The notes under the pieces: generated by a model
The model's database searches: none
Seen by the model: only the letters and a program-made list of their open reading frames with translations
Told to the model about the DNA's origin: nothing
NCBI GenBank assembly: GCA_019779905.1
Contig: JABAKE010000005.1
Span: 124,001-188,000 of the forward strand
From: Modestobacter lapidis
GTDB lineage: Bacteria > Actinomycetota > Actinomycetes > Mycobacteriales > Geodermatophilaceae
DNA: 64,000 nucleotides
Direction of reading: 5' to 3'
Made by a program: the position numbers and the translations under genes
In this document: positions 31,853 to 50,194 of the stretch, piece by piece
Layout: each line of letters begins with the position of its first letter
Position numbering within the stretch: the stretch's first letter is position 1

Positions 31853-32030
31853 CCCGCGCTCCCGGCAGGTGCCGCACTGGCGGGAGTTGTTGAGATCCAG
31901 GTCACTGTTCATCGATTCCCACCCCGGGCCACGCCCGGCGCCCGGCGCACACTCGGTCGCGGGCCGCACGGATGCGGCCGCTGTGCACCACTCCCCCGGT
32001 GCTCCCGGGGGCCGACGAGGAGAGACCCCC

Positions 32031-32222
32031 ATGTGCTTCCACGGAACGCCCTGCCCCGCCGCCGCCGACGACGGCCGCGTGCTCGCCGCCCCGGTCAGCC
32101 GGCACCCCGAGCAGGGCTGGACCCTGCTGTGCAACGGCGTCGTCCTGTTCGACGACGACGGCGAGCTGCTGCCCGACGGCCAGGTGGTCCTCAGCCGCCG
32201 GTGGCAGCTGGCCAACGCCTGA
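32031..32222 (+). CDS. DUF5999 family small protein
   Basis: A 63-aa actinobacterial protein of unknown function. It opens MCFHGTPCPAAAD and ends with HPEQGWTLLCNGVVLFDDDGELLPDG, the family signature (about residues 25-50), with three conserved Cys. The ATG has GAGGAGAGA upstream. It lies 178 bases after coaA and before a serine hydrolase gene. Confidence 0.85.
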   Translation: MCFHGTPCPAAADDGRVLAAPVSRHPEQGWTLLCNGVVLFDDDGELLPDGQVVLSRRWQLANA

Positions 32223-33323: not shown

Positions 33324-36362
<3,039 letters not shown>

Positions 36363-36511
36363 TGCATCGACGCTACAACAACGTCGGCCTTCCGGCCGAC
36401 ACCGCGATCAAGTGCCGTCCCCATGCCCGCGGAGCCGCTGCGTCGCGCCTGCGCGGACCCCTCCGGGGCCCACTCGGCACGACAGTGCCTGGCGCTTTCT
36501 GGACGGGGCTA

Positions 36512-37084
36512 CTACGCGGAGGCGGCGCGACGCCGGCGGCGGGCGGTGAGCTCGTCGTCCACCTGCTGGCCGCTGCCGTCCAGCCGTTCGGCCGGGAGCT
36601 CGGCGAGCTCGCCGGAGAGCTCGCGCAGCGCACCGGAGACGGCGATGCCGAACACGCCCTGGCCGCCGGCGAGCAGGTCGACGACCTCCTCGGCAGACGT
36701 GCACTCGTAGACCGTGGCGCCGTCGGACAGCAGCGTGAGGTTCGCGAGCTCACGCACGCCGCGCTGGCGCAGGTGGTCGACGGCCTTGCGGATGTTCTGC
36801 AGCGAGACCCCGGTGTCGAGCAGCCGCTTGACGACCTTGAGCACCAGGATGTCGCGGAAGGAGTACAGCCGCTGCGTGCCCGAGCCGGTCGCCGTGCGCA
36901 CCGACGGGGCGACCAGACCGGTGCGCGCCCAGTAGTCGAGCTGGCGGTAGGTGATGCCGGCGGCCGAACAGGCGGTCGGGCCGCGGTACCCGACGGCGTC
37001 GTTGTCGACCTCGTCGTAGGCGGGCGCGCCCACGGCCCGGTCGGAGAACAGCTGCCCCTGCGCACCGTTGCCCTGGTCGGTCAC
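36512..37084 (-). CDS. MerR family transcriptional regulator (Rv1830-like)
   Basis: A 190-aa MerR regulator. The DNA-binding domain (about 24-95) has YRGPTACSAAGITYRQLDYW, LVAPSVRTATGSGTQRLYS and a helical RDILVLKVVKRLLDTGVSLQNIRKAV region. The rest contains a short effector part with LSDGATVYECTSAEEVVDLL. Gene order matches Rv1830 beside gcvP. The GTG start overlaps the stop of a 26-codon leader ORF (GTGA) and is preceded by GCGAGGAG within that leader. Confidence 0.88.
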   Translation of the reverse strand: MTDQGNGAQGQLFSDRAVGAPAYDEVDNDAVGYRGPTACSAAGITYRQLDYWARTGLVAPSVRTATGSGTQRLYSFRDILVLKVVKRLLDTGVSLQNIRKAVDHLRQRGVRELANLTLLSDGATVYECTSAEEVVDLLAGGQGVFGIAVSGALRELSGELAELPAERLDGSGQQVDDELTARRRRRAASA

Positions 37085-37161
37085 GAGCTCTCCTCGCCGG
37101 CGCTCGTCGACCGCGCTCGCGCTGCTGCTGTACCCATGCGCTCGCTCGCAGGCTCGCTCAC
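37081..37161 (-). CDS. Leader ORF (26 codons) coupled to merR; leader element copy E1
   Basis: GTG start with a strong GAGGAGG ribosome site 7 bases upstream. The peptide begins VSEPASERMGTAAARARSTS and ends in AGEESS. Its TGA stop overlaps the merR GTG (GTGA), so ribosomes finishing it could start merR. The surrounding 82 bases (37081-37162) match 49073-49154 upstream of livM at about 68 of 82 positions without gaps. Most differences change the amino acid, so the nucleotide sequence or the coupling may matter more than the peptide. Confidence 0.6.
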   Translation of the reverse strand: MSEPASERMGTAAARARSTSAGEESS

Positions 37162-37334
37162 GTCGGCGCCTCCTCGTGTCCCACCCCGCCACCGAGTCCG
37201 GGAACGGTCAGCCCGGGCGACCAAGGAGTCACACGGGCGTGATTCGCTGACCGTAGGCCGGGGCCGGGAGCCGGTCAACCGCGGCGGGGGGCGTGTCGCC
37301 CCACTCACCCCTCCCGAGTGGGAGAACACCTCCG

Positions 37335-37412
37335 GCCCCTCTGCAGGGTCCCCACGTGAGGGGAAGCTCGGCCCGGCCTCTGGAGCGGGCCGGGGGCCGT
37401 GGGGCCCCTTCG
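37335..37412 (-). terminator. GC-rich hairpins after the bifunctional nuclease gene
   Basis: Directly after the stop, read on the minus strand: GACGAAGGGGCC, a GGCCCG/CGGGCC stem, and a second TCCCC/GGGGA stem within 80 bases. It shares the GACGAAGG opening with the 3' end of the DUF881 gene at 40163 but not the conserved core. The remaining 170 bases up to the E1 leader hold no gene and presumably the merR promoter. Confidence 0.6.
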
Positions 37413-37907
37413 TCAGGTGGGGCCGCTGCCGCCGGACCCGGAGCCGGCGCCGAAGTCCTCGGGGCTGATGTTGTCCAGGAACTCGCGGAACTTCTCCACC
37501 TCGTCCTCCTGCTCGTCGGGGATCTCGATCCCGACCTCGTCGAGCAGGGCCTCGGCCCCGTAGATCGGCGCCCCGGTCCGCACGGCCAGCGCCACCGCGT
37601 CCGACGGGCGGGCGCTCACCGTGCGCTCGTCGCCGAACACGAGCTCGGCGATGTAGATGCCGTCCCGCATCTCGGTGATGTTGACCGCCTCGAGGCTGGC
37701 GCCCAGGGCGTGCACCACCTCGCGCAGCAGGTCGTGGGTCATCGGCCGGGCCGGCCGGACCCCCTGCTGCTCGAAGGCGATGGCGGCGGCCTCGACCGCG
37801 CCGATCCAGATCGGCAGGTAGCGCTCCCCCTGGGTCTCCTTGAGCAGCAGGATGGGCTGGTTGCCGGGCAACTCGACCCGGACGCCGACGACTCTGAGCT
37901 CCTGCAC
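37413..37907 (-). CDS. Bifunctional nuclease family protein (Rv1829-like)
   Basis: A 164-aa protein of the DUF151 (bifunctional nuclease) family. It has VVGVRVELPGNQPILLLKETQGERYLPIWIG at the N-terminus (about 6-36) and ARPSDAVALAVRTGAPIY (about 98-115), the family core. The C-terminal tail is acidic and ends in a Gly/Ser stretch. Plant members have both RNase and DNase activity; the function here is unproven. It lies between the two MerR genes as in mycobacteria. Confidence 0.88.
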   Translation of the reverse strand: MQELRVVGVRVELPGNQPILLLKETQGERYLPIWIGAVEAAAIAFEQQGVRPARPMTHDLLREVVHALGASLEAVNITEMRDGIYIAELVFGDERTVSARPSDAVALAVRTGAPIYGAEALLDEVGIEIPDEQEDEVEKFREFLDNISPEDFGAGSGSGGSGPT

Positions 37908-38055
37908 GGCTGGCTCCCTCCGCTGTGTGGCACGTCTGCGGACAGACGGTGCAGTGCGGTCTCGGCTGGTCTGGTCGGGGCGGTCGGTGGCGCGTCCGCC
38001 GTCCGGGGACGTCGGGTCGCTCCCCCGTGCCTGTCACCCCGAGGTTACGCCAGGG

Positions 38056-38832
38056 TCAGCTGCCCAGGACGTCCCGCAGTCGGGCTTCCAGCAGGGCGGT
38101 GTGCAACTGCACCGACAGCTCGGCCAGCTCCTGCAACTGCTCGGCCGCCCGGGCGCGCGCCTCCTCCGGGCGGGCCCGCAGGAGCGGTGACACCAGCTGC
38201 TCCAGCAGGCCGGCCTCGCGTTCGGCGGCAGTGCGGTAGACCCGCAGGTGCCGGGGCTCGATGCCGTGCCGCGCCAGCCCGGCGGCCGCCCGGGCCACCG
38301 GGAGGTCGCTGGCCGGGTGGCGGCCGCGGTCGTCCTGGCCGACGAGCCCGAACTGCACGCAGTCGGCGAGCTGGGCGTCGTCCAGCCCGGCCGCGCGGGC
38401 GAACTCCTCGGCCGACAGGGCCGCCGGGGCGGGCCGGCCGGCCGGCGAGCCGCCGAGGGTGACGGTGAGGCCCACCGGTCCCGGGTCCGCGACGGCGCCG
38501 CCGCCCTCGGGCCCGACGCCCGGCACCGGCTCCCCCCGGTCACGGGCGTCGAGGTGCTCCTTGATCACCCGCAACGGCAGGTACTGATCGCGCTGGGCGG
38601 ACAGCACGTACCGCAGCCGGGCGACGTCGGCGTCGGCGAACTTGCGGTACCCCGACGGCGTCCGCTGGGGGTGGACGAGGTCCTCCGCCTCCAGGTAGCG
38701 GATCTTGCTGATGGTGACGTCGGGGAACTCGTCGCGCAGGGCGCCGAGGACCTCCCCGATGGTGAGCCGCGGTGCGGTGCCGTGGGTGGTGTCCCGGTCA
38801 GCGCTCCCGCTGGGCTGGGGCACCGCGTTCAT
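38056..38832 (-). CDS. ftsR: MerR family regulator FtsR (Rv1828-like)
   Basis: A 258-aa MerR regulator. The N-terminal winged helix (about 22-95) reads LTIGEVLGALRDEFPDVTISKIRYLE, then LVHPQRTPSGYRKF and DVARLRYVLSAQRDQYLPLRVIKEHLD (given in parts), characteristic of FtsR, which activates ftsZ in Corynebacterium. The C-terminal half (about 135-255) is the family's second domain with SAEEFARAAGLDDAQL. The ATG starts after a GAAGTGAGA leader. It lies upstream of the nuclease gene and downstream of garA. Confidence 0.85.
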   Translation of the reverse strand: MNAVPQPSGSADRDTTHGTAPRLTIGEVLGALRDEFPDVTISKIRYLEAEDLVHPQRTPSGYRKFADADVARLRYVLSAQRDQYLPLRVIKEHLDARDRGEPVPGVGPEGGGAVADPGPVGLTVTLGGSPAGRPAPAALSAEEFARAAGLDDAQLADCVQFGLVGQDDRGRHPASDLPVARAAAGLARHGIEPRHLRVYRTAAEREAGLLEQLVSPLLRARPEEARARAAEQLQELAELSVQLHTALLEARLRDVLGS

Positions 38833-38886
38833 CTCTCACTTCCCGCTTCGTTCCGCTCCCCGGTCGCCGACGCCACTGCGACCGCG

Positions 38887-39405
38887 TCAGGCCCCGGCGG
38901 ACTCGCCGGTGCGCGGGCCGGTCAGGTACACCAGCCGGAACTTGCCGATCTGGACCTCGTCACCGCCGGCGAGGGAGGCCACGTCGACCGGCTCGCGGTT
39001 GACGTAGGTGCCGTTCAGGCTGCCGACGTCGTGCACGGTGAAGCCACCGCCCTCGCGGTGGAACTCCACGTGCCGGCGGCTGACCGTCACGTCGTCGAGG
39101 AAGATGTCGCTGTCGGGGTGCCGGCCCGCGGTGGTGACGTCCTGGTCGAGCAGGAAGCGGCTACCCGCGTTGGGGCCACGCTTGACCACCAGCAGGGCCG
39201 ACCCCGCCGGCAGCGACTCCACGGCGCCGGCGTGCACGTCGGCCGCCGACTCGGAGACCTCGGCGACCTCGCCGGAGTCCTCGCCGCCGACCTTGGGGAT
39301 CACGCTGGTGGACTCACCGACGCGCTCCGGGCTCAGAGCCGCCCCGCACTGCGCGCAGAAGCGACTGCCCTCGGGGTTCTGGTGGCCACATCGAGTGCAG
39401 TGCAC
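38887..39405 (-). CDS. garA: FHA-domain protein GarA with N-terminal zinc ribbon
   Basis: A 172-aa regulator of 2-oxoglutarate and glutamate metabolism, controlled by Ser/Thr kinases. The FHA domain (about 70-160) has AGRHPDSDIFLDDVTVSRRH (Arg95, Ser109) and GSLNGTYVN (Asn131). The phospho-acceptor region is ESTSV (31-35) where M. tuberculosis has ETTSV. A zinc ribbon CTRC and CAQC (Cys3, 6, 17, 20) precedes it and is absent from M. tuberculosis GarA as I recall it. GTG 39405 follows GGAGGAGA; the frame is open upstream to 39618 but lacks homology. Confidence 0.88.
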   Translation of the reverse strand: MHCTRCGHQNPEGSRFCAQCGAALSPERVGESTSVIPKVGGEDSGEVAEVSESAADVHAGAVESLPAGSALLVVKRGPNAGSRFLLDQDVTTAGRHPDSDIFLDDVTVSRRHVEFHREGGGFTVHDVGSLNGTYVNREPVDVASLAGGDEVQIGKFRLVYLTGPRTGESAGA

Positions 39406-39655
39406 GTCTGTCTCCTCCGGTGCAGCGGCACCGCCGCGGGCTTGTGGTGCGGCCGCGTCGGCCGGCGGACGACGGGCCGGGCGGCCCGTCGCAGGTCGGC
39501 CACCGCGGGGTTGCGGCGGGCCGGGGTCATGGAACCAGTCGGTCGGCCCGAGGGTCAACCGAACGTCCGGGGTGCGGATGGGGTGCCCCGGTCGCGCCTC
39601 GGACGTCGTGACGATCATAGTGACCGGGGTTCCTCCCGCGATCGCGGGAGGTCGG

Positions 39656-40060
39656 TCAGGAAGCGTCCACGACGGCCTGGTAACCGGCCGCGTCGAGCAA
39701 CGCGGCGGTGGGGTCCTCGCCGCCGCCGCTCACCCTGATCTCGATCAGCCAGCCCGCGCCGTAGGGATCGGAGTTCACCGTCTCCGGCTGGGCCTCGAGC
39801 GCCTCGTTGCGAGCGGTGACGACGCCGGCGACGGGGGCGTAGACGTCCGAGACCGACTTGGTCGACTCGACCTCGCCGATCGGGGTGCCCACGACGACCT
39901 CCTCGCCGACGTCGGGCAACTGGACGAACACGATGTCACCCAGCGCGTCCTGGGCGTGGTCGGTGAGGCCCATCCGCACGACGGTCGCCTCACCCGTGGA
40001 GCCCTGGACCTGCGCCCACTCGTGCTGCTCGGTGTAGCGGCGGTCCTCGGGCGTGGCCAT
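39656..40060 (-). CDS. gcvH: Glycine cleavage system H protein
   Basis: A 134-aa lipoyl carrier of the glycine cleavage system. The lipoylated residue is Lys68 in GEVESTKSVSDVY. YTEQHEW at the N-terminus and NSDPYGAGWLIEI near residue 105 are conserved. ATG 40060 is preferred over ATG 40102 because it has GGAG six bases upstream and matches the usual length, and because the upstream ATG would lie beside the previous gene's terminator. Confidence 0.92.
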   Translation of the reverse strand: MATPEDRRYTEQHEWAQVQGSTGEATVVRMGLTDHAQDALGDIVFVQLPDVGEEVVVGTPIGEVESTKSVSDVYAPVAGVVTARNEALEAQPETVNSDPYGAGWLIEIRVSGGGEDPTAALLDAAGYQAVVDAS

Positions 40061-40107
40061 GCGGGCTCCAGGGTGAGCGGGGGCAGGGGTGGGTGCGTTC
40101 ATGGGCC

Positions 40108-40162
40108 TCGGTGCAGGGGCCCGGTCCGGGCGGAGCGAGGGCTGGGGAGCACCGATCCTTCG
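40108..40162 (-). terminator. 3'-end hairpin of the DUF881 gene (copy T4, partial core)
   Basis: After the stop, the RNA reads CGAAGGA, then outer stem TCGGTGC/GCACCGA enclosing CCCCAGCCCTCGCTCC and GACCGGGCCCCT. The opening CCCCA and closing GGGCCCCT of the core match the elements after rbpA and the GH65 gene; the middle differs. Confidence 0.6.
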
Positions 40163-40978
40163 TCAGTCGCCGTCGGCCGGCTCAGCGTATTGAGGCATGT
40201 CCAGCTGCCGCAACGCGTCGACGACGACCAGGTCGCTCTGGACCAGGTCGACGGTGCCGTCGCGGAGCCGGACCTTGTCGACGACGCCGTTGGGGATGTT
40301 CATCGCCGTGGCCATGTCCTGCGGAGAGCCGATCACCTGGAAGACGTAGGGCGCCTCCACCGGCTGGCCGTCGAGCGCGAGGTCGCCGGGGCTGCCGGTG
40401 ACCGCGGTGCTCACCCCCACCCGGACGTCGTCGATCTGCATGGTCTCCGCCCCGGCGCCCCGCAGCTCCTGGATGGCGTCGAGCAGGACGGCTGCGGGCA
40501 CCCGGTCCATCGGGTCGCGGATGGTCATCTCCAGCCCCGGCCCCTGCGCCGGCAGGGTTCCGTTGAGGATGCCCAGGGCCTGGGACCGCTCCCGGGCCTC
40601 GGCCAGGGCGGCTTCGGCCTGGCTGTCGGAGCTGCCGAGCTGAGCGAGGGCGCTGCGCTGCTCGGCGATCTGCTGCCGCAGCCGGTCCTCCCGGCCGGTG
40701 AGGTCGTCGAGGATCCGGACGAGGTCCTCCTCGCGGGCCCCGGCCAGGGCCTGGCCGTCGTCGGTGGTGCGCACCTGGACGGCGAAGGCGAAGCCGAGCA
40801 GCAGGGCGAGCACGCCGATGAGGGCGGCGGCCAGCAGATCACCGCGCTGCTTCCGGCGGGGCGCCGGGGCAGCGGGCCCGTCGTCGGCGGTCGCCGGCTC
40901 GGGACGCACACTCTCCTGCGCCGGACGCACCTCGTCCGGCGTCCCGTCGCCCGGGTCACCGCTCGACGGCGTGGTCAT
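40163..40978 (-). CDS. DUF881 family protein (Rv1825-like)
   Basis: A 271-aa membrane-anchored protein. A charged N-terminal region (1-45) precedes one hydrophobic segment (48-68), then a coiled coil (about 75-125) and the DUF881 domain with LNGTLPAQGPGLEMTIRDP and AGAETMQIDDVRV. Its function is unknown; the cluster is linked to cell envelope and division in actinobacteria. Its start overlaps the stop of the small basic protein gene (ATGA). Confidence 0.85.
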   Translation of the reverse strand: MTTPSSGDPGDGTPDEVRPAQESVRPEPATADDGPAAPAPRRKQRGDLLAAALIGVLALLLGFAFAVQVRTTDDGQALAGAREEDLVRILDDLTGREDRLRQQIAEQRSALAQLGSSDSQAEAALAEARERSQALGILNGTLPAQGPGLEMTIRDPMDRVPAAVLLDAIQELRGAGAETMQIDDVRVGVSTAVTGSPGDLALDGQPVEAPYVFQVIGSPQDMATAMNIPNGVVDKVRLRDGTVDLVQSDLVVVDALRQLDMPQYAEPADGD

Positions 40979-41307
40979 GCGCGGAACAGGTGCCGTCGGA
41001 TGGCCGCGGCGTTGCCGAAGATGCGGATGCCCAGCACCACCACCACGGCAGTGGACAGCTGGGCGCCGACGCCCAGCTGGTCACCGAGGAAGACGATCAG
41101 CGCGGCGACGACGACGTTGGAGACGAAGGAGACGACGAACACCTTGGCGTCGAAGATGCCGTCGAACCGGGCCCGGACGCCGCCGAAGACGGCGTCCAGC
41201 GCGGCCACCACCGCGATGGGGAGGTAGGGCTGCAGCCAGAGCGGGACGCTGGGATCGAGGATCAGGCCGAGCACGACACCGACGGCGAGGCCGAGGATGG
41301 GGATCAT
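40975..41307 (-). CDS. Small basic family protein (DUF1290, Rv1824-like)
   Basis: A 110-aa membrane protein with three hydrophobic segments (about 1-20, 28-40, 55-75). It opens MIPILGLAVGVVLGLILDP and has AVVAALDAVFGGVRARFDG, the DUF1290 signature. It lies between two DUF881 genes, as in mycobacteria and streptomycetes. Function unknown. ATGA overlap with the downstream DUF881 gene. Confidence 0.9.
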   Translation of the reverse strand: MIPILGLAVGVVLGLILDPSVPLWLQPYLPIAVVAALDAVFGGVRARFDGIFDAKVFVVSFVSNVVVAALIVFLGDQLGVGAQLSTAVVVVLGIRIFGNAAAIRRHLFRA

Positions 41308-41310
41308 GCA

Positions 41311-42249
41311 TCAGCCTCCGTTGGTGGGTGTCGGGGTGGAGCCGGCGTCGGCCGACCGTTCCAGCGGCCGCGCGAACCGCAGCTCGGCACCCCTGCCCGC
41401 CGGGAGGGACAACTCGTCGGATCGGGCGAACTCGAACGTCAGACCGTAGTCCCTCTCCAGGCCGGCGACGTACGTCGCCTCGGGCGAGCTCAGGAAGCCG
41501 TTGGCCAGCTCGTCGGGGTCGCCGATGGCCGAGACCTGGTACGGGCTGGCGACCGGCCGGAAGTCGACCAGGATCGCCCCGCCGGCCTGCCGGATCGCGG
41601 TCGTGGGCCCCAGCCGCTGGCCGTTGATGCCGATCGCCTCGGCCCCCGCCGACCACAGCGCGTTGACCACGAGCTGGAGGTCGCTGTCCTGCACCAGGCC
41701 GGCCAGCGCGATCTCCGGGGAGCCGCCGACCGGGTCGGAGTCGGCATCGGCCGCGGCGTTGCCCAGGGTGACCCGCAGCCCGGGGCCGGTGACCGCGACG
41801 ACCCCGGCCCCCTGTTGCGCGGCGGCGAGCCGGGTCAGCGCGTTCTGCCCGATGGCGGTGGCGTCCAGCGCGGCCTCCCGGGTGCGGGTCACCTCGACGA
41901 TGAGCTCGTCCAGCTGCTCGGCGAGGTCGTCGGTGGTCGCCGACTGCGTCCGGATGTCCTCGATCAGGGCCTCCCGGACCTGCTCGCGGCCCTGCGCACC
42001 CTCCGCGGCCTCCCGGTAGGCCACCGCGGCCAGGAGGCCGGCGACGACCAGGGTGGCCGCGACGAGCAGGCTGCTGGCGCGGCGGCTGCGGATCTCGCCG
42101 GTGCCGCCGGTGGCCGCGGCCCGCGCCCGGCGGTCGGCGGCCGCCCGCTCGTAGGCCGGGTCGAGGGTCTCGGCCAGGACCTGGTCGAGCAGCGAGGCGC
42201 CCAGCGAGCGTTGCCGCCCCGGCACCGGACTGCCCGTGTCCCCGCTCAC
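41311..42249 (-). CDS. DUF881 family protein (Rv1823-like)
   Basis: A 312-aa paralogue of the protein at 40163. The membrane segment is at about 57-78 (SLLVAATLVVAGLLAAVAY), followed by a coiled coil and the DUF881 core with VAVTGPGLRVTLGNA and GAEAIGINGQRL. GTG 42249 overlaps the pgsA-type stop (GTGA); the frame is open upstream but that part only shadows the other gene. Coupled translation with its neighbours is likely. Confidence 0.85.
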   Translation of the reverse strand: MSGDTGSPVPGRQRSLGASLLDQVLAETLDPAYERAAADRRARAAATGGTGEIRSRRASSLLVAATLVVAGLLAAVAYREAAEGAQGREQVREALIEDIRTQSATTDDLAEQLDELIVEVTRTREAALDATAIGQNALTRLAAAQQGAGVVAVTGPGLRVTLGNAAADADSDPVGGSPEIALAGLVQDSDLQLVVNALWSAGAEAIGINGQRLGPTTAIRQAGGAILVDFRPVASPYQVSAIGDPDELANGFLSSPEATYVAGLERDYGLTFEFARSDELSLPAGRGAELRFARPLERSADAGSTPTPTNGG

Positions 42250-42911
42250 GGCCGCCCGCCGGCGAACCGCTCGCCGCGGAGCAGTCCGACCGCCTGGACG
42301 ACGTAGAGCACCCCGGCCAGCAGGTACAACGCGCCGCCCCACGCGGTGAGGGCGTAGGCGAACGGCCGGGCGATGCTGGCCAGCGGCCCGTCACCGTCGG
42401 CCAGGAGCAGCAGCGGAAAGGCGTACAGCAGCAGGAAGGTGGCCGCCTTGCCGAGGTAGTGGACCTGCAGCGGTGGCCAGCCGGCCCGGCGCAGGAGCAG
42501 GAGCACGATGCCGAGGACGAGTTCCCGACCGACCAGGACGGCGACCACCCACAGCGGGACGACGTCGCGCAGCACGAAGGCGACCAGCGTGGCGATGATG
42601 TACAGCCGGTCGGCGGCGGGGTCCAGCAGCGCGCCCAGCTTGCTCTCCTGGCCCCAGGCGCGGGCCAGCTTCCCGTCGGCCCAGTCGGTGAACCCCGAGA
42701 TCATCAGCACGATGACCGCCCAGCCGTCGGCCTCCGGCCCGAGCAGGAGCCAGAGGAACAGCGGCACGCCCAGCAGCCGTAGCAGCGACAGCGCGTTGGG
42801 CAGCGTGGCCACCCGGTCGCCCAGGTCGTCGCGGGACGCGACTGCTCCCGGACGCCGTCCATCGGCCCCGCCGCCGGGCTGCCCATCTGCCCGACCGTCC
42901 GTCGCCGTCAC
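42246..42911 (-). CDS. CDP-alcohol phosphatidyltransferase family protein (PgsA2-like)
   Basis: A 221-aa membrane enzyme of phospholipid synthesis. The catalytic motif DG-x2-AR-x8-G-x3-D-x3-D is complete in DWADGKLARAWGQESKLG followed by ALLDPAAD (about 76-100). Five or six hydrophobic segments follow. It may make phosphatidylglycerol phosphate or cardiolipin; position matches Rv1822 (PgsA2). GTG 42911 has GGAGG five bases upstream. It is the first gene of the conserved block on this strand. Confidence 0.88.
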   Translation of the reverse strand: MTATDGRADGQPGGGADGRRPGAVASRDDLGDRVATLPNALSLLRLLGVPLFLWLLLGPEADGWAVIVLMISGFTDWADGKLARAWGQESKLGALLDPAADRLYIIATLVAFVLRDVVPLWVVAVLVGRELVLGIVLLLLRRAGWPPLQVHYLGKAATFLLLYAFPLLLLADGDGPLASIARPFAYALTAWGGALYLLAGVLYVVQAVGLLRGERFAGGRP

Positions 42912-43045
42912 CGATCCTCCGCCTCGCCGTCCACCGCCAGCCAGGTTAGTGCCCGGGACCGGCGGTCCCTGTGTTGCGGCTCGTGCGGTGTCGGCCGGGT
43001 GGCGGGCTCCTTCTCGCCGGGCGACCACTTGATATGTCGACGCAG

Positions 43046-43061
43046 TGTTGGGGATAACGGT
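43046..43061 (+). repeat. Dispersed 16-bp motif, copy C
   Basis: TGTTGGGGATAACGGT on the plus strand in the 225-base gap between the AMIN-like gene and the phosphatidyltransferase gene. Like the other copies it has GTCGA a few bases upstream (43036-43040). Confidence 0.85.
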
Positions 43062-43136
43062 CGAATCACCGACCGGCGTGGGCAGCCGCCCGCCCGGGAT
43101 CAGGACGGTACGGCGAACCGGATCAGCGCCGGAACG

Positions 43137-43709
43137 TCACCACTCGTGGGCGACGTCGACGACCAGCCGCGCGCCCTCGGACGAGTCGGCGTTCCCGGAC
43201 AGCACGAACACCCGGAACGGCAACCGCGCCCGCGTGCCGAGGCCGAGGGATGTCTGCCCCTCGAAGGAGCCGGCCCAGGCGACCTGCTGCAGGGTGCGGT
43301 GGCCGCTGACGTCGACGACCTCGGCGGGGTCGGACGGCAGGAAGGTCGGCCGGCGGGCGTCGTCGTACGCCGGTGCCTGCACGATGAGCCGGAGCACCGC
43401 GCCGCCGCGCAGCGGGACCGGCTCGCCGGATCCCTGCGCGGTCAGCCGCGGAACGTACCGCGCGTCGTAGGCGTCGGTGGCTCCGGAGAGGTCCACCACC
43501 AGCCGGTCGAAGCAGTCGTGCTGTCCGGTCCGCACGTCGACGACGGCGCCTTCCGGCACCGGGCCGCCGGGCTCGACCTCGGGCAGGGACCCCCACCAGA
43601 TCCCGCAGTAGGGAGTGGCCGCGGCGGCCGGTGACACCAGGCCGACCGCCACGGCCATGACACCGGCCAGCACCAGCGGGAGCCGGCGGAGTGAACGGGC
43701 ACTGAACAT
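43137..43709 (-). CDS. Secreted AMIN-like domain protein
   Basis: A 190-aa exported protein. The signal peptide (1-32) has RSLRRLP, a hydrophobic core and a PAAAATP cleavage region. The mature part has CFDRLVVDLSG and YDARYVP, then LRLIVQAPAYD, and an RVFVLSG...RLVVDVAHEW ending, all typical of the actinobacterial AMIN-like family, which may bind cell-wall material. The ATG follows GGAGG at 5 bases. It is divergent from the luciferase-like gene. Confidence 0.75.
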   Translation of the reverse strand: MFSARSLRRLPLVLAGVMAVAVGLVSPAAAATPYCGIWWGSLPEVEPGGPVPEGAVVDVRTGQHDCFDRLVVDLSGATDAYDARYVPRLTAQGSGEPVPLRGGAVLRLIVQAPAYDDARRPTFLPSDPAEVVDVSGHRTLQQVAWAGSFEGQTSLGLGTRARLPFRVFVLSGNADSSEGARLVVDVAHEW

Positions 43710-43950
43710 GACGGACCTCCATCGGTTGCCTTCCACCAGCGTCCCGCAGTGATCGGGCACCCACCTGGTCAGGGCGACATCGTCACCGCCTCCCCGAGCG
43801 TGTCGTCCGCAGATCGCAATGTGTGCCGCGCCGGCGGCGACCGAACAGCGGAGTTCCCGTGACCCACCGCATACTCGGCCTACCGCACCCGCGGGCCCCA
43901 GCCGGGCCCGGCCGCGTTCCCCGGTCCACCGACGCACCCGAGGAGTTCCC

Positions 43951-45129
43951 GTGTCCAAGATGCGCTTCGGCATCTTCATGCCGCCGTTCAACAGCCCGCC
44001 CACCCAGAACCCGACGACCTCGCTGCAGCGCAACGTCGAGACCATCCAGCTGCTGGACCGGCTGGGCTTCGACGAGGCCTGGATCGGCGAGCACCACTCG
44101 GCCGCGACGGAGATCATCGCCGACCCGCTCACCTTCATCGCGCACGTCGGCGCGATCACCCGGGACATCAAGTTGGGCACCGGCGTGGTCTCCATCCCGT
44201 ACCACAACCCGTTGTGGGTGGCCGACCGCGCGATCCTGGTCGACCACCTGCTCCGCGGCCGGCTCATGCTCGGGGTGGGCCCGGGCTCGCTGCCCACCGA
44301 CGCCGCGATGATCGGCCTGGAGCCGGCGCAGCTGCGCCCGGCGCTGGCCGAGGACCTCGACGTCCTGCTGCGCCTGCTGCTCAGCGAGGAGCCGGTGTCG
44401 GTGAAGACCGACCGGTACGAGCTGGTCGACGCCCGCTGCCAGCTGGCTCCTTTCCAGGACCCGTGCTTCGAGCTGGCGGTCGCCGCGACCGCCTCGCCCA
44501 CCGGCCCGACCCTGGCGGGGAAGTACGGGCTCGGGATGCTCTCGGTCGGTGCCACCACCAAGGAGGGGTTCGACGTCCTCGGTCACCACTGGAACGTGCT
44601 GGAGGCCGAGGCGGCCGCGGCCGGCCGGACTCCGGACCGGTCCCGCTGGCGGTTGATGGGCCCGATGCACATCGCCGAGACCCGGGAGCAGGCCGTCGAG
44701 GACATCCGCTACGGGTTCGACGCGTTCGCCGACTACACGCAGAAGACGCTGGCCCTGCCGCCGGTCCGCATCCCCGGGGACACCTTCGACGAGCGGCTGG
44801 CCTGGATCGACGAGAGCGGGTGGGGCGTGGTGGGCACGCCCGATGACGCGATCGCCCAGATCCAGCGGCTGGTCGACCAGTCCGACGGCGGGTTCGGCTG
44901 CTACATCCTGCTGCAGCACGACTGGGCGAACTGGCAGGCCACCCAGCGCAGCTTCGAGCTGTTCGCCCGGCACGTCATCCCGGCCTTCCAGCCGTCGCAG
45001 CGGCGGCTGCTCGCCGCCGAGGCGTGGGCCCGCAGCAAGCACAGCGAGCTGGACGCCAAGAACGGCGCAGCCATCCAGGCGGCATCCGACAGGTACGCCC
45101 AGGAGAAGGCCGCCGCCGGCCAGGCCTGA
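43951..45129 (+). CDS. LLM class flavin-dependent monooxygenase
   Basis: A 392-aa bacterial-luciferase-like monooxygenase. It opens MRFGIFMPPF (residues 3-12), has DEAWIGEHH (about 45-53), the flavin-binding RDIKLGTGVVSIPYHNP strand and RLMLGVGPGSLPTDAAMIG. The C-terminal 60 residues form a helical extension seen in alkane/limonene-type members. GTG 43951 follows GAGGAG. It lies just outside the benzoate genes, and no operator copy was found in front of it. A hairpin terminator follows. Confidence 0.85.
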   Translation: MSKMRFGIFMPPFNSPPTQNPTTSLQRNVETIQLLDRLGFDEAWIGEHHSAATEIIADPLTFIAHVGAITRDIKLGTGVVSIPYHNPLWVADRAILVDHLLRGRLMLGVGPGSLPTDAAMIGLEPAQLRPALAEDLDVLLRLLLSEEPVSVKTDRYELVDARCQLAPFQDPCFELAVAATASPTGPTLAGKYGLGMLSVGATTKEGFDVLGHHWNVLEAEAAAAGRTPDRSRWRLMGPMHIAETREQAVEDIRYGFDAFADYTQKTLALPPVRIPGDTFDERLAWIDESGWGVVGTPDDAIAQIQRLVDQSDGGFGCYILLQHDWANWQATQRSFELFARHVIPAFQPSQRRLLAAEAWARSKHSELDAKNGAAIQAASDRYAQEKAAAGQA

Positions 45130-45132
45130 GCT

Positions 45133-45170
45133 GCAGGAGGCCGCCGGGACCACCCGGCGGCCTCCCCTGC
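45133..45170 (+). terminator. 12-bp stem hairpin after the monooxygenase gene
   Basis: GAGGCCGCCGGG pairs with CCCGGCGGCCTC around ACCA, extended by GCAG/CTGC at the base. It begins 4 bases after the stop. Confidence 0.8.
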
Positions 45171-45290
45171 CGGCCCGGCCCTGGTGACGGTCGCCACCCG
45201 CCGGCACCCCGGGAGATGACAGTGCACGACCCACACAGCACGATGGGATCCCGGTCACGTACGGCCGGACACCGAACGAGGGAGCGGCAG

Positions 45291-45845
45291 ATGAGCGACC
45301 GACCGGGCATCCCCGCCCGCGAGTTGTCCGACGAGGAGCTGGAACGCCAGGGCGTGCACGCCCACGCCATGCGCCACTGGGTGTTCCTGCACGGCACCGC
45401 CGAGCAGTTCCGCACGCACACCGAGCGGATGCTGGAGCTGGAGCAGGAGTACCTCCGCCGGCACCCGCAGCGCACCTGGCAGGGATCGGGCGGCGAGGCC
45501 GCCACGGGCTCACGCGACGACCGGATCCGCGACCTGGTGCTCACCTTCTCCCGGGCCATCACGGCGCTGCTGGACGAGGCCCCGCCCGCGGCGTCGGCCG
45601 GCGGGACCCCGCGGCTGGACCCCGCGGCGGCGCAGGCCGCCCTGCTGCAGCGCTTCGCCGAGGCCCCGGGCGGCCGGATGCACAAGCTGGAGGCGCACCA
45701 CATCGCCCGGGAACTCACCTCCGACAGCCACCTGGTGGCGCGCCTCTACCGGCAGGAGCCGTCCCTGCTGCAGGCCGAGCGGGACATGCGGGTCATCACC
45801 GACGCCGGACGGGCCTGGCTGGCCGAGCACGCCGTGCCGGCCTGA
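45291..45845 (+). CDS. DUF6158-like protein with extra C-terminal domain
   Basis: A 184-aa protein. Residues 5-62 resemble a small actinobacterial family (recalled as DUF6158): GIPARELSDEELERQ, HWVFLHGTAEQFRTHTERM and LEQEYLRRHP. Those proteins usually end about there. Here about 110 more residues follow, with RIRDLVLTFSRAITALLDEA and a C-terminal helical part (ARELTSDSHLVARLYRQEP and so on), whose family I do not recognise. The ATG is preceded by GAGGGAGCGG. It converges on the PaaX-type gene with a one-base gap. Confidence 0.6.
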   Translation: MSDRPGIPARELSDEELERQGVHAHAMRHWVFLHGTAEQFRTHTERMLELEQEYLRRHPQRTWQGSGGEAATGSRDDRIRDLVLTFSRAITALLDEAPPAASAGGTPRLDPAAAQAALLQRFAEAPGGRMHKLEAHHIARELTSDSHLVARLYRQEPSLLQAERDMRVITDAGRAWLAEHAVPA

Positions 45846-45846
45846 G

Positions 45847-46701
45847 TCAGTCCTGCCGGGCGACGGACTCCCACGCCAGCTGGGCTCGCGGAGCCCAGCT
45901 GGCGTGCCGCTCCCGGAACACCTCCGCGGCCCGGTTGCCGCTCCACCGGGGGGGCAGCAGCTCCCGGGGCAGGCCGGGATCCAGCAGCGGGAACCGCCGC
46001 CACTCCTGGATCAGCCGCACCTGGGCCACCAGCGCCTGACGGTCGGTCCGCGGCCGACGACGGCTCACCAGGTCGAGAAAGTGCTCGTACCGGCGCTCGA
46101 TGACGTCGAGGTCCCAGGCGCTCCGGGCCAGTGACCGCTCGTCCCCGACCTGCCCGGCCGATGCCAGGAAGGACCAGCTCCCGGCCAGCAGCCCGAGGTC
46201 GTCCAGCACCCGGTGCGCCTCCGGCTCGCGGCCCGTCCGTGGGGTGACCCAGGTGCTGGCGTTGACCGACCCCAGCCCGGCCCAACCCAGCTGGGTGCGC
46301 AGCCGCTGGCGCAGCGCCCGCTTGTTCTCCGGCACCCCGACGGTCATCACCAGCCAGCGCCCGTCCCACGCCCGTTCGTCGGCGGCGAAGCCGTAGATGC
46401 GGTCGGTGCCCGCCCGCAGCAGCCGGGTGCCGGCGCCGGTGAGCGCCCAGCGCGTCTCCCGGCCCACCCGGCTGCCCTCGATCCAGCCGCTGTCAGCGGT
46501 CCGCATGATCGCCTGGCGCGCGGCCTTCTCGGCGACGTCGAGGTCGGCGAGCAGTTCGATGAGCGTCGCGGTCCACACCGGCCGGCCACTGGGCAGCACG
46601 AACTCACCGAGCACGGTGAGCAGCAGGCTGCGCGCACTCGCGGCGCCCAGCTCCTGACGCCGCGTCACGAACGGCCCTTCGACGACCTCCACGCCCGCCA
46701 T
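45847..46701 (-). CDS. PaaX family transcriptional regulator
   Basis: A 284-aa regulator. The N-terminal winged helix (about 20-85) has ARSLLLTVLGEFVLPSGRPVW, EKAARQAIMRTADSGWIEG and GRETRWALTGAG; the central PaaX domain has WDGRWLVMTVGVPENKRALRQRLRTQL (about 113-139) and the C-terminal part WDLDVIERRYEHFL. PaaX proteins sense aryl-CoA esters, so benzoyl-CoA is the obvious candidate ligand here. It is divergent from the ABC importer genes, whose promoter carries an inverted repeat at 46845-46864. Confidence 0.85.
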   Translation of the reverse strand: MAGVEVVEGPFVTRRQELGAASARSLLLTVLGEFVLPSGRPVWTATLIELLADLDVAEKAARQAIMRTADSGWIEGSRVGRETRWALTGAGTRLLRAGTDRIYGFAADERAWDGRWLVMTVGVPENKRALRQRLRTQLGWAGLGSVNASTWVTPRTGREPEAHRVLDDLGLLAGSWSFLASAGQVGDERSLARSAWDLDVIERRYEHFLDLVSRRRPRTDRQALVAQVRLIQEWRRFPLLDPGLPRELLPPRWSGNRAAEVFRERHASWAPRAQLAWESVARQD

Positions 46702-46802
46702 CCTGGCATCCTCCGGTGGTGGCGTTCCCGGCTGCCGGGCCGACGCCCCACCACGGGGTGGTCACGACTCGGCCACAACGGCCGCGGAAGGCCCTGTGAG
46801 GC

Positions 46803-46830
46803 TTGACACCAGCGGATCGCGCACTACAGG
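46803..46830 (+). promoter_or_regulatory. Possible sigma-70-type promoter of the livK operon
   Basis: TTGACA (46803-46808), 16 bases, then TACAGG (46825-46830). The -35 is perfect and the -10 poor. The inverted repeat at 46845 lies just downstream, where a bound repressor would block initiation. Confidence 0.45.
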
Positions 46831-46844
46831 CTTTGTCGCCAACG

Positions 46845-46864
46845 GACGTGCGATGTAGCACGTC
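46845..46864 (+). promoter_or_regulatory. Operator site 1 of the benzoate region (contains TGTAGCACGTC)
   Basis: GACGTGC-GATGTA-GCACGTC, a perfect 7-bp inverted repeat with 6-base spacer; its right half is the TGTAGCACGTC motif found at 52526, 60390, 61397 and 63183. It sits between the PaaX-family gene and livK. Confidence 0.65.
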
Positions 46865-46890
46865 ACGAGATGTTCGGAGTGTGTGTGTCC

Positions 46891-48111
46891 ATGGCACAAG
46901 GATCGTCCCGACGGAACGGAACCCGACTCGGCGTCGGGCTGCTGGCCCTGACCCTGACCGCCGCCTGCGGTGGCGGCGGCAGCCTCGGCGGTGACGAGGG
47001 CGGCGGTGAAGGTGGCGGCGAGGCCGGCGGCACCGTCACCGTCGGGCTGGTCATCCCCCAGGCCGGCGTGTACACGCCGCTGGGCGAGGACATGCAGCAG
47101 GGCTGGGATCTCTACCTGGACCAGCACGACGGTCAGCTCGGCGGGTACGAGGTCGAGACCGTCGTCGCCGACGAGGGCGAGAGTCCCGACACCGGCGTCC
47201 CGGCCGTCCAGCGGCTGCTGACCGAGGGGGAGGTCGACGCCCTGGTGGGCATCGTGAACTCCGCCACGGCGCTGGGGGTGGCCGAGCAGGTGGCCGAGGC
47301 CCAGATCCCGCTGATCGTCGCCAACGCCGGCGCCGAGGCCGTCACCAAGGACGCGGGCAACCCCTACGTGTGGCGCACCTCGTTCACCAACGCGCAGGTC
47401 GCCGCGGCGATGGGTGAGCACCTCGCCGCCGAGGGCGTCGGCCCGGTCTACGTCATGGCGCCGGACTACGCGGCCGGCCAGGAGGTCGTGGCGGGCTTCA
47501 CCGAGGCCTACGAGGCCGCCGGCGGCACCGTGGCAGGCCAGACGCTGACCCCCTTCGGCAGCACCCAGGACTTCCAGCCCTTCCTGTCCAACGTCCAGTC
47601 CTCCGGCGCCGAGGCGGTCTTCGTCTTCTACGCCGGCGGCGAGGCCGTGAGCTTCGTGCAGCAGTACGACGCCTTCGGGCTCAAGGACAGCACCCCGCTG
47701 TACGGGTCGGGCTTCCTGACCGAGGGCAGCGTCCTGGACGCACAGGGCGAGTCCGCAGTCGGGGTGCGCACGTCGCTGCACTACTCCACCGAGATCGACA
47801 ACCCGGCCAACACCGAGTTCGTCGCCGCCTACCAGGAGGCCTACGGCGAGCTGCCGACGACGTACGCGGTGCAGGCCTACGACGCCGCCAACGTGCTCGA
47901 CAGTGCGCTGGAGGGAGTCGAGGAGGTCAGTGGCCAGGCGATCGCCGAGGCTCTCGAGACCGTGGGCGAGATCGACGACAGCCCCCGTGGGCCGTGGACG
48001 TTCAACGGCCAGACGCCCGAGCAGACCATGTACCTGCGCGAGGTGGCCGAGGTGGACGGCACCCTGCGCAACACCGTGGTCACCGACCTCGGCGTGTTCG
48101 CCCAGCCCTAG
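46891..48111 (+). CDS. livK: Branched-chain amino acid-type ABC transporter substrate-binding lipoprotein
   Basis: A 406-aa periplasmic-binding-type lipoprotein. The signal peptide ends at lipobox LTAAC (Cys26), followed by a Gly/Glu spacer to about residue 45. The mature protein has the Liv-family layout GLVIPQAGVYTPLGEDMQQGWDLYLD, the LVGIVNSATALGVAEQV loop and YAVQAYDAANVL. ATG 46891 has GGAG 11 bases upstream; ATG 46870 would put the operator inside six bases of the start. In a benzoate cluster, an aromatic acid is the likely ligand. Confidence 0.85.
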   Translation: MAQGSSRRNGTRLGVGLLALTLTAACGGGGSLGGDEGGGEGGGEAGGTVTVGLVIPQAGVYTPLGEDMQQGWDLYLDQHDGQLGGYEVETVVADEGESPDTGVPAVQRLLTEGEVDALVGIVNSATALGVAEQVAEAQIPLIVANAGAEAVTKDAGNPYVWRTSFTNAQVAAAMGEHLAAEGVGPVYVMAPDYAAGQEVVAGFTEAYEAAGGTVAGQTLTPFGSTQDFQPFLSNVQSSGAEAVFVFYAGGEAVSFVQQYDAFGLKDSTPLYGSGFLTEGSVLDAQGESAVGVRTSLHYSTEIDNPANTEFVAAYQEAYGELPTTYAVQAYDAANVLDSALEGVEEVSGQAIAEALETVGEIDDSPRGPWTFNGQTPEQTMYLREVAEVDGTLRNTVVTDLGVFAQP

Positions 48112-48120
48112 TCCAGCGCT

Positions 48121-48170
48121 GACCGGCGGCCGCGGTCGGGGTGTTCGCACCCCGACCGCGGCCGCCGGTC
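48121..48170 (+). terminator. 23-bp perfect stem with TTCG loop between livK and livH
   Basis: GACCGGCGGCCGCGGTCGGG plus GTG, then TTCG, then the exact complement. It lies 9 bases after the livK stop and 22 before the livH start. It probably terminates part of the transcripts or protects the livK 3' end, so the binding protein is made in excess over the permeases. Confidence 0.85.
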
Positions 48171-48192
48171 CATGCGGAGCGGAGGTTCTTCC

Positions 48193-49077
48193 ATGGCCGG
48201 CTGGTTCGACGCGAACCTGGTCAGCATCCTCAACGGGTTCGCCATCGGCTCGTTGCTGTTCATCCTCGCCGTGGGCCTGTCGATCGTCTTCGGGATGATG
48301 GACGTGCTCAACCTGGCGCACGGCGCCTTCTTCCTCGTCGGCTCCTACCTGGCGGTCAGCTTCGTGGCCGGCGTCTCCTGGGGTGGTTTCCTCGCCGCGC
48401 TGGCCGTCGCCGCCCTGTTCGGCCTGCTCGCCGGCGGGGTGCTCTCGGGCATGACCGAACCACTGGCGCGCCGGCCGATCCTCGACCAGGCCCTGCTCAC
48501 GCTGGGCATCTCACTGATCGTCGCCGAGGTCCTGTCGATCATCTACGGCAACAACGTCCGTTCGGTGCCCGGCCCCCCCGGGCTGGACGGCAGCGTGCAG
48601 GTCGCCGGCAGCACCTATCCCACCTACCGGCTGATGCTCATCGCGGTCGGGCTGCTGCTGGCCCTCGTGGTCTGGCTGGTCGTGGAGCGGACCTCGATCG
48701 GCGCGCTCGTGCGGGCCAGCGTCGCCGACCGGGAGATGGTCTCGGCGATGGGCATCGACAACCGGAAGGTCAAGTTCGCCGTCCTCGGGATCGGCTCGAT
48801 GCTGGCCGCCGTCGCCGGAGTGCTCGGCGCCCCGGTCTACGGTGCCCGGCCGGGCCTGGACAAGACGATCCTCATCCTCGCGCTCGTCGTCGTCGTCATC
48901 GGCGGCCTCGGCTCGGTCCGGGGCGCCCTCATCGGCGCGCTGGTCATCGGCCAGGTCGAGTCACTGGGCCGGGCACTGCTGCCCGAGCTGGCGTCCTTCA
49001 TCCTGTTCGGGACCCTCGCGCTGGTGCTCATCATCCGGCCGCGGGGCCTCTTCGCCGGAAAGGTGGCCCACTCGTGA
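48193..49077 (+). CDS. livH: Branched-chain amino acid-type ABC transporter permease
   Basis: A 294-aa LivH-type permease with about eight hydrophobic segments. It has NGFAIGSLLFILAVGLSIVFGMMDVLNLAHG-type opening (described by its LNLAHGAFFLVG part, about 41-52) and GSVRGALIGALVIGQVESLG near residue 245, the ATPase coupling region. ATG 48193 has GGAGG at 7 bases; the in-frame ATG 48172 lies against the hairpin. Its stop overlaps the start of a leader ORF (GTGA). Confidence 0.88.
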   Translation: MAGWFDANLVSILNGFAIGSLLFILAVGLSIVFGMMDVLNLAHGAFFLVGSYLAVSFVAGVSWGGFLAALAVAALFGLLAGGVLSGMTEPLARRPILDQALLTLGISLIVAEVLSIIYGNNVRSVPGPPGLDGSVQVAGSTYPTYRLMLIAVGLLLALVVWLVVERTSIGALVRASVADREMVSAMGIDNRKVKFAVLGIGSMLAAVAGVLGAPVYGARPGLDKTILILALVVVVIGGLGSVRGALIGALVIGQVESLGRALLPELASFILFGTLALVLIIRPRGLFAGKVAHS

Positions 49078-49154
49078 GCGAGCTTACGAGTTCGCGCAGG
49101 GGTACAGCAGCGCCGCGAATGCGGCCGACGAGCGCCAGCGAGGAGGACTCATGA
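49074..49154 (+). CDS. Leader ORF (26 codons) between livH and livM; leader element copy E2
   Basis: The GTG overlaps the livH stop (GTGA) and the TGA overlaps the livM start (ATGA), so three reading frames are chained by four-base overlaps. The peptide begins VSELTSSRRGTAAPRMRPTS and ends ASEEDS. The 82 bases 49073-49154 match the merR leader (37081-37162, minus strand) at about 68 positions without gaps. GCGAGGAGGA near its end is the livM ribosome site. Translation of the peptide is inferred from spacing only. Confidence 0.6.
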   Translation: MSELTSSRRGTAAPRMRPTSASEEDS

Positions 49155-50194
49155 GCGTGGTCCCCGACAGCTCGACCGACGCCTCCGGCGTCGGCGCCGA
49201 CCCGAGGACCGGCCCGGCGCCGGGCCCGTCCCGGGCCGCCCGGCTGGCCACGCGCGGCATCCCGCTGCTCGTCCTGCTGGTGCTGCTCGCATCGGCCCCG
49301 CTGTTCGCCGCTCCGTTCACCGCGAACACGCTGTCCCGGATCCTGATCTTCGCGCTGTTCGCGGTGAGCCTCGACCTGCTCGTCGGCATCACCGGACTGC
49401 CCTCCCTCGGGCACGCCGCGTACTTCGGGGTGGGCGCCTACACCGCCGGCCTGGTGTCGATCCACTGGACCAGCGCAGCCCCCGTCCCGGTCCTGCTGGC
49501 CGCAGCCGTAGGGGCGCTGGCCGCGGTGGCCACCGGCTGGCTGGCGGTGCGCAGCGGCGGGGTGTACTTCCTGATGCTCACGCTGGCCATCGGTGAGCTG
49601 GTGCACCAGCTCGCGCAGAGCCTGTCGTCGGTGACCGGCGGCTCGAACGGCCTGTTCGGGATCCCGAGCGTCCGGATCGGGGGCGAGCCGCTGACCCTGG
49701 CCGGCTACGTCTACTGGTACGTGCTGGCCGTGGCGGTGCTCGGCTTCCTCGGGCTCTGGCTGGTCGCGCGCTCCCCGTTCGGTGCCACGTTGCGCGGCAT
49801 CCGCGACAACGAGCCCCGCATGCGGTCGCTGGGCTACTCGCCGTTCCGCTACAAGTACCTGGCGTTCGTCGTCGCGGGCGGGTTCGCCGGGCTGGCCGGT
49901 GGCCTCTTCGCCGCCCTGGTACGCATCGTCAACCCGAGCGACGCCGGCTTCACCACCAGTGCGCTGATCCTCCTCGCGGTGGTCCTGGGCGGCGCCGGGA
50001 CGCTGTGGGGCCCGGTGCTGGGCGCGGCCGTCGTCGTGCTCGTGCGGGACACCTTCGGGCCCCAGCTGGACGGGCACGGTCCGCTCCTGCTCGGGGTCGT
50101 GTTCGTCGTCGCGGTGTACGTGCTGCCCCGCGGCTTCGCCGGTCTCGCCGGCCTGGTTCCCGGTCGCCGGCGCTCAACGGGAGGCACCGCATGA
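49151..50194 (+). CDS. livM: Branched-chain amino acid-type ABC transporter permease
   Basis: A 347-aa LivM-type permease. After a 35-residue cytoplasmic tail there are about nine hydrophobic segments, with ITGLPSLGHAAYFGVGAYTAGL (about 76-97), RGIRDNEPRMRSLGYSPFRYKYLAF (about 213-237) and GAGTLWGPVLGAAVV. The ATG overlaps the leader ORF stop; its own stop overlaps livG (ATGA). Confidence 0.9.
   Translation: MSVVPDSSTDASGVGADPRTGPAPGPSRAARLATRGIPLLVLLVLLASAPLFAAPFTANTLSRILIFALFAVSLDLLVGITGLPSLGHAAYFGVGAYTAGLVSIHWTSAAPVPVLLAAAVGALAAVATGWLAVRSGGVYFLMLTLAIGELVHQLAQSLSSVTGGSNGLFGIPSVRIGGEPLTLAGYVYWYVLAVAVLGFLGLWLVARSPFGATLRGIRDNEPRMRSLGYSPFRYKYLAFVVAGGFAGLAGGLFAALVRIVNPSDAGFTTSALILLAVVLGGAGTLWGPVLGAAVVVLVRDTFGPQLDGHGPLLLGVVFVVAVYVLPRGFAGLAGLVPGRRRSTGGTA

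Follow-up and report, generated by a model that had tools for sequence, protein, structure and literature searches.

Probable interspersed elements of the mycobacterial interspersed repetitive unit (MIRU) type at overlapping stop and start codons in Modestobacter lapidis and other actinobacteria

Element copies before merR and livM

The window analysed here is a stretch of 64,000 nucleotides from the genome of Modestobacter lapidis (contig JABAKE010000005.1, positions 124,001 to 188,000); coordinates below are those of the window unless a locus is named. Two of its genes are each preceded by a copy of one short element: merR (36512-37084, minus strand; MerR_1, Pfam E-value 2.6e-15 on the longer frame 36512-37192) and livM (49151-50194, plus strand; BPD_transp_2, Pfam on frame 48842-50194), the latter following livH (48172-49077, plus strand; BPD_transp_2 by Pfam). 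The liv names are those of the initial annotation. The element consists of DTGA (D being A, G, or T), 73 bp, and a second DTGA, 81 bp in all, with a net unit of 77 bp.

Copy 1 (37081-37161, minus strand) carries GTGA at both ends and coincides with a 26-codon leader open reading frame (ORF), whose GTG lies at 37161 and whose TGA ends at 37081. As read in the sequence, its left GTGA occupies 37158-37161 and its right GTGA 37081-37084, where the leader stop overlaps the merR start. Copy 2 (49074-49154, plus strand), also of 81 bp, with its own 26-codon leader ORF, begins with a GTGA joining the livH stop to the leader start (49074-49077) and ends with an ATGA joining the leader stop to the livM start (49151-49154). 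The initial annotation had described two similar leaders, and the details it gave were borne out: the leaders agree at 67 of 82 positions without gaps (82%), both hold a GTG-started 26-codon ORF whose TGA overlaps the next start, and the left GTGA at livM also contains the livH stop.

The strong ribosome site claimed for the merR copy was likewise present (AGGAGG, 37169-37174, minus strand), where it now precedes the leader ORF. In relatives lacking the element, GAGGAG occupies the corresponding position in front of merR, which indicates that AGGAGG was probably the original ribosome site of merR. The element brings a site of its own for each downstream gene, GAGGAG for merR (37090-37095, minus strand) and GAGGAGG for livM (49140-49146, plus strand). 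Upstream of copy 1, the frame ending in the left TGA was open for 38 codons only.

Copies in the host genome

The likeness of the two leaders is not due to chance, given 43 strong matches in the host genome. A query of 142 bases matched 31 places there; a sequence-only model (R1), built from 28 copies, gave 47 matches, 43 of them at E ≤ 1.4e-9 and four of them weak fragments. The search for further copies that the initial annotation had proposed thus uncovered a larger phenomenon than the one first reported. Copies occurred singly or in arrays of 2-4 with a 77-bp step, adjacent units sharing one DTGA. At a locus in another genome (L136 in G154) the units of an array were joined by GCGA rather than DTGA, which breaks the chain of starts there.

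Thirty-four host arrays were read. A right DTGA was present in 32, with a frame of at least 106 codons opening at every one, and absent from the remaining two. At the left TGA of these 32 arrays, at least 100 open codons ended in 24 cases and fewer in 6; two arrays were without a left DTGA. Open frames in such G+C-rich DNA are not proof of genes, so family searches were run on 19 of the 32 downstream frames, those of merR and livM excluded, and 18 matched a family (E ≤ 1e-8, or separately for FlgC, assigned by TIGR01395 at 99 bits, slightly below the cut-off of 102.1); no family matched the frame at L337. Tabulating what follows the copies, another step suggested at the outset, showed unrelated genes: lumazine synthase, a molybdopterin-binding protein, GcpE/IspG, FlgK, TruB, a pyridine-nucleotide-disulphide oxidoreductase, a GNAT acetyltransferase, transporters, NuoG, NuoE, RapZ, ribosomal protein S9, SufS, RecG, a response regulator, and an ABC ATPase. 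The copy at L012:6363-6443 (plus strand) stands immediately before ribosomal protein S9.

Reading frame and neighbouring genes

Both ends were found in 223 of 246 distinct matches, with lengths from 69 to 96 bp that were divisible by three in 209 of the 223. From left to right DTGA, the leader ORF was open and in frame in 208 of 222 copies, out of frame in 13, and interrupted by a stop in 1. Among 127 distinct 81-mers, a stop fell in the leader frame of one and in the other two frames of 127 and 21; the stop found in all 127 is owed to the TGA of the left end. The element lay on the strand of the adjacent gene, and tandem copies shared the overlap.

Arrays with sufficient flank numbered 180 of 195. 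A coding frame started at the right DTG in 170 of the 180, and coding neighbours abutted on both sides in 114, compared with 37.3% (downstream frame) and 1.8% (both neighbours) of 12,023 control DTGA sites from these loci, of which those within the window were sampled at one in five. A downstream frame by itself is frequent among the controls; the strong test is the joint one of both neighbours.

Conservation of the encoded peptide was also considered as the feature kept, and was rejected when copies were compared. In six orthologous copies at the merR locus, the 81-bp ORF was intact despite sequence drift, and pairwise differences by codon position (67/62/52) had no synonymous bias, in agreement with the initial observation that most substitutions were non-synonymous.

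Occupied and unoccupied sites

At the livH-livM junction the element was found in the host and one relative; of 13 relatives in which both flanks were read, 11 were without it and one was unclear. A single DTGA stood at all 11 element-free junctions (7 ATGA, 4 GTGA). Among 30 merR loci, those of the host and five congeners were occupied, 2 were half-eroded, and 22 were without the element, one of them in a congener; 20 of the 22 read DTGA and two GTGG. Among 30 flgC loci (the gene upstream is flgB by our reading), 25 lacked the element, 1 was unclear, and four were occupied, the host's and those of three genomes from a second genus. Some starts at the element-free flgC sites read ATGG or GTGG. 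The flgC copies (L270-L272 and L016) belong to two genera and sit almost, but not exactly, at one place, which suggests that separate, repeated insertions may have occurred at the flgC start.

The livH-livM junction of one genome (L060, in G222) showed a livM that begins ATGAGCGAGCTGGCC..., like the 5' end of the element. This may be the eroded remnant of a copy that has fused with the gene; the profile reported no copy with both ends at that junction.

If the element were simply a conserved 5' leader or a peptide gene passed down with the genes it precedes, a merR copy common to several congeners would be accounted for. We find this hardly credible, given the element-free sites, the unrelated genes downstream, the many copies, the tandem arrays, and the absence of peptide conservation. 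Nor did the idea of a feature confined to two leaders survive: what lies there is an element with many copies, and relatives have sites that it does not occupy.

Covarying ends

At both ends of the aligned copies the terminal DTGA covaries with a partner inside the element, a separate one for each end, and this is seen also among copies with unlike ends. Position 1 (the D) and position 22 formed G-C in 136, A-T in 72, and other combinations in 14 of 222 copies. The left hairpin and right closing pairs were first spotted by eye and then counted in alignment A3, which holds 123 of 129 non-redundant copies, six being left out for long or short internal indels; dropped beforehand were copies that were out of frame, longer than 96 bp, or N-containing, and those sharing at least 86% identity with a retained copy of equal length. 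In these 123 copies the left pair was G-C in 69, A-T in 43, and other in 11 (Watson-Crick in 112), and the right D with its partner in the middle of the element was G-C in 58, A-T in 38, and other in 27 (Watson-Crick in 96). Unlike ends were seen in 26 copies, of which 14 match at both ends separately (9 with G-C left and A-T right, 5 the reverse) and 12 fail at one or both. The pairing effect was lost when the structure was slid by 1-3 columns. Left and right letters agreed in 149 of 180 single copies (97 when shuffled, standard deviation 6). Positions 19-20 read GA in 134 and TC in 82 of 222 copies, giving tandem G-A or Watson-Crick pairs. From 28 copies, RNAalifold recovered some of the inner right hairpin and missed both the left hairpin and the right closing pairs. 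The inner register 7-11/16-20, tried as an alternative, did not covary. The right end had a small excess of long complementarity (mean best 4.90 of 8, compared with 4.49 shuffled; n = 221).

Placed on the window, this covariation predicts terminal hairpins in both copies. The left hairpin of copy 1 (37140-37161, minus strand) would have a G1-C22 pair, a T2/G21 wobble, mismatches G3/A20 and A4/G19, and pairs G5-C18 and C6-G17. Its right hairpin (37081-37118, minus strand; element positions 44-81, with C47-G78) would close on the merR start and contain the element's internal ribosome site. For copy 2, the left hairpin is placed at 49074-49095 (plus strand; G1-C22) and, from covariation counts and letters, the right one at 49117-49154 (plus strand), with T47 of GAATG facing A78 of ATGA. 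Copy 2 is thus a mixed-end copy, G-C at the left and A-T at the right, each end matching its own partner.

Selection on RNA pairing

A ribosome site and start inside the predicted right hairpin speak for another explanation, namely a regulatory cassette for translational coupling that benefits the downstream genes: its hairpins would keep the start and the ribosome site hidden as long as the gene upstream is not being translated. An RNA-unfolding model of coupling is reviewed in the relevant passages of PMC12548453. The kept frame, with the 81-bp ORF intact in the six drifting merR orthologues, is on the side of such a cassette. Selection on the sense RNA should favour G-U over A-C, yet the mispaired cells over ten pairs with both letters free were 28 G-T (G-U in RNA) and 33 A-C, an even split predicted by decay after a matched insertion and not by long selection. 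The pair of columns 56 and 96, excluded from that test because the T of TGA is fixed, behaved differently: A-T in 85, G-T in 25, and other mismatched T pairs in 9, so that the G-T share (25 of 120 cells) at this right closing pair leans towards RNA-level selection. In four merR orthologues the outer left pair was lost and the ORF kept.

The initial annotation had supposed that RNA sequence or coupling may be kept. Frame and ends are indeed kept and the peptide is not; an RNA structure kept by selection is doubtful, given the even split over the ten free pairs and ordinary folding energies. The phrase 'dispersed translational-coupling cassette' of the initial annotation is apt in that the element is dispersed and chained by stop and start overlaps, but not in the regulatory sense of a cassette, the insertions being patchy and before unrelated genes. 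With orthologous sites patchily occupied and unrelated genes downstream, an element that tolerates operons fits better than one that serves them, and we judge the regulatory cassette unlikely.

Distribution across actinobacteria

Among 298 genomes of the order, 80 contained a match at E ≤ 1e-5, 49 of them Geodermatophilaceae and 31 from five other families; two Geodermatophilaceae genomes were without a match among those listed. A pattern scan gave at least 120 stretches, and 101 of the 120 contain a copy with both ends. The pattern fixed TGAGCGAGC, GCGAGC, KMAY, and GCGAGG and is uninformative about them; it left free the combination of D1 with Y22 as well as the right D. Organism names were taken from 80 of the loci scanned. 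Genera with a copy in A3 include Geodermatophilus, Blastococcus, Modestobacter, Pseudonocardia, Nocardia, Micromonospora, Catellatospora, Phytohabitans, Kutzneria, Saccharothrix, Streptomyces, Microbispora, and Kribbella. Pattern matches in Kitasatospora and, outside Actinomycetota, in a Chloroflexi metagenome-assembled genome (L207) were not upheld as copies with both ends.

A structure-aware model (R2) matched, at E ≤ 0.01, 118 of 396 genomes that we assign to Mycobacterium from their PPE proteins; most of these matches belonged to a 69-bp form, whose tandem copies step by 65 bp. R1 gave no match in that presumed genus among the genomes of the order. The left ends of the presumed Mycobacterium copies (47) were A-T in 30, G-C in 11, A-A in 5, and A-C in 1, and the right ends (46) A-T in 37, G-C in 7, A-C in 1, and T-G in 1, counts to be read with the knowledge that these loci were found by R2, which favours paired ends. 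The five A-A ends were taken as misread partners, and the rows L301 (83 bp), L302, and L358 (75 bp) as misbounded. The minimum-energy fold of one such copy (L299) showed both terminal hairpins.

One copy, searched by BLAST against plasmids and phages, had no match, which says little at 81 bases. In 10 copy-bearing loci no Rfam 15 covariance model reached its gathering score, and within 36000-49400 of the window there were only two matches, far below that score and neither on a copy.

Other features in the window

A second, different dispersed repeat lies between merR and gcvP (36373-36490, minus strand). Matches to it of about 105 bp and 82-94% identity occur in dozens of places across genomes of the family, some in tandem with an 84-bp step (G027:C5:317933-318287). 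Its predicted folding energy is low (-67.2 kcal/mol for 118 nt, a value without a shuffled control), and the stretch had no Rfam match. A tRNA-Ala (ggc) called by ARAGORN at 32007-32100 (minus strand) spans 94 bases, which is long for a tRNA.

Interpretation

We consider it probable that these copies represent a non-autonomous interspersed element of the MIRU type, inserting either at a stop/start overlap formed by DTGA or at a lone DTGA start. Occupied sites have two DTGAs 77 bp apart, the left one containing the stop of any abutting upstream gene and starting the leader ORF. At merR, the leader ORF sits behind what was probably the gene's original ribosome site. The element contributes a GAGGAG of its own and, in its right DTGA, the downstream start. 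Unit lengths of 77, 65, and 80 leave a remainder of 2 when divided by three; the -4 overlaps therefore stay in register and an operon stays readable from stop to start, twice. Ribosomes would translate the leader and re-initiate downstream, in which case an insertion would be nearly harmless and copies would last mainly at such sites. The element is likely a non-autonomous mobile one, with an ORF that lets operons still be read.

Choice of target may be guided by the paired ends. With less assurance, we suppose that both terminal hairpins, each formed by DTGA and its internal (GA|TC)AY partner, could be the ends recognized by an enzyme supplied in trans, and that the (GA|TC)AY partner could act as a guide choosing GTGA or ATGA. 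The most complete version of the proposal would have MIRU-type elements as miniature mobile DNA found throughout the actinobacteria, with the target chosen by pairing of a (GA|TC)AY guide with DTGA (C-guides for GTGA starts, T-guides for ATGA starts), movement by an enzyme other than a Y1 transposase, and a leader ORF that makes landing on a start codon harmless. We offer it tentatively, as possible but doubtful in its entirety.

A related alternative is a single-strand DNA element of the repetitive extragenic palindromic (REP) or IS200/IS605 type, with hairpin ends, tetranucleotide-guide pairing, and mobilization by a Y1 transposase. The tetranucleotide at both ends, the subterminal hairpins, and the covarying, guide-like partner would all be expected of it. 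However, the Y1 transposase family PF01797 was found in none of 54 Geodermatophilaceae genomes as against 5 of 14 control genomes, and the left end has a mirror-image geometry compared with IS608. We regard this type as improbable.

Several observations weigh against the MIRU-type reading as well. With PF01797 absent from all 54 genomes searched, the host's included, no mobilizing enzyme can be named. The DTGA that served as target is inconsistent among the three loci, livH-livM pointing to the right one and flgC to the left, and the start at several unoccupied sites is GTGG or ATGG instead of DTGA. Pairing of the right end fails in 27 of 123 copies, covariation could derive in part from the descent of a few element lineages, and the RNA folds of four copies are not unusually stable (z-scores -0.38, -0.33, 0.56, and -1.01). 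Upstream coupling is not universal, since no coding frame was found stopping at the left DTGA in 61 of 180 arrays.

MIRUs underlie the strain typing of tuberculosis. With its covarying ends and naturally unoccupied sites, a family spread widely among soil actinobacteria opens the questions of where MIRUs came from and how they move to tests in laboratory species. Such a family further provides many natural experiments on ribosome re-initiation, including those at the genes of ribosomal protein S9, TruB, NuoE, and NuoG.

Comparison with known systems

The closest known system is that of the MIRUs. In general, these have DTGA as their target and lie on the same strand as genes; the element described here likewise follows the strand of the adjacent gene, its tandem copies share the overlap, and its unoccupied sites show DTGA, though some show GTGG or ATGG. 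In the part of a 2025 review that concerns them (PMC12548453), MIRUs, described in 1997 (reportedly by Supply et al.), appear mobile, insert at start codons, and carry an ORF coupled with -4 (NTGA) spacing, features comparable to the 208 of 222 open leader ORFs and the 114 of 180 arrays abutting both neighbours. Three 77-bp MIRU units at senX3-regX3 are mentioned in an extract of PMC4213456, so that unit and tandem arrangement are shared. The 77-bp unit of the element, with its 43 strong host copies, falls within the roughly 40-100 bp of MIRUs. Portions of two other papers list a stem-loop family containing MIRU repeats (PMC2267715) and relate the length of a tandem repeat upstream of an fpg gene to its expression (PMC2734929).

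There are also differences. The same extract of PMC4213456 restricts MIRUs to M. leprae and the M. tuberculosis complex, whereas the present family is far wider, and paired, covarying ends are not mentioned for MIRUs in the passages of either PMC12548453 or PMC4213456. No 77-bp MIRU array was recognized among the R2 matches listed for the presumed Mycobacterium genomes, under stricter filters. The likeness is one of kind, compared by description, and is not a claim of homology to the M. tuberculosis MIRU.

REP sequences with their REP-associated tyrosine transposases (RAYTs; together REPtrons) and the ends of IS200/IS605 elements are also short, dispersed, and bounded by hairpins in which a tetranucleotide faces a guide. 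Here both ends covary in the manner of such a tetranucleotide-guide pairing, the pairing itself being predicted. The present element differs from them in its conserved open frame, its position at stop/start overlaps, and the lack of a Y1 transposase in the 54 Geodermatophilaceae genomes. Miniature inverted-repeat transposable elements (MITEs) are short, non-autonomous, and multicopy as well; the ends described here are direct DTGA repeats, without terminal inverted repeats. No description of such an element outside mycobacteria was recognized among the matches listed in the open-licence literature. We place it with a known kind of element, as a wide branch that was not found described in the literature searched and whose covarying ends are a new, testable feature.

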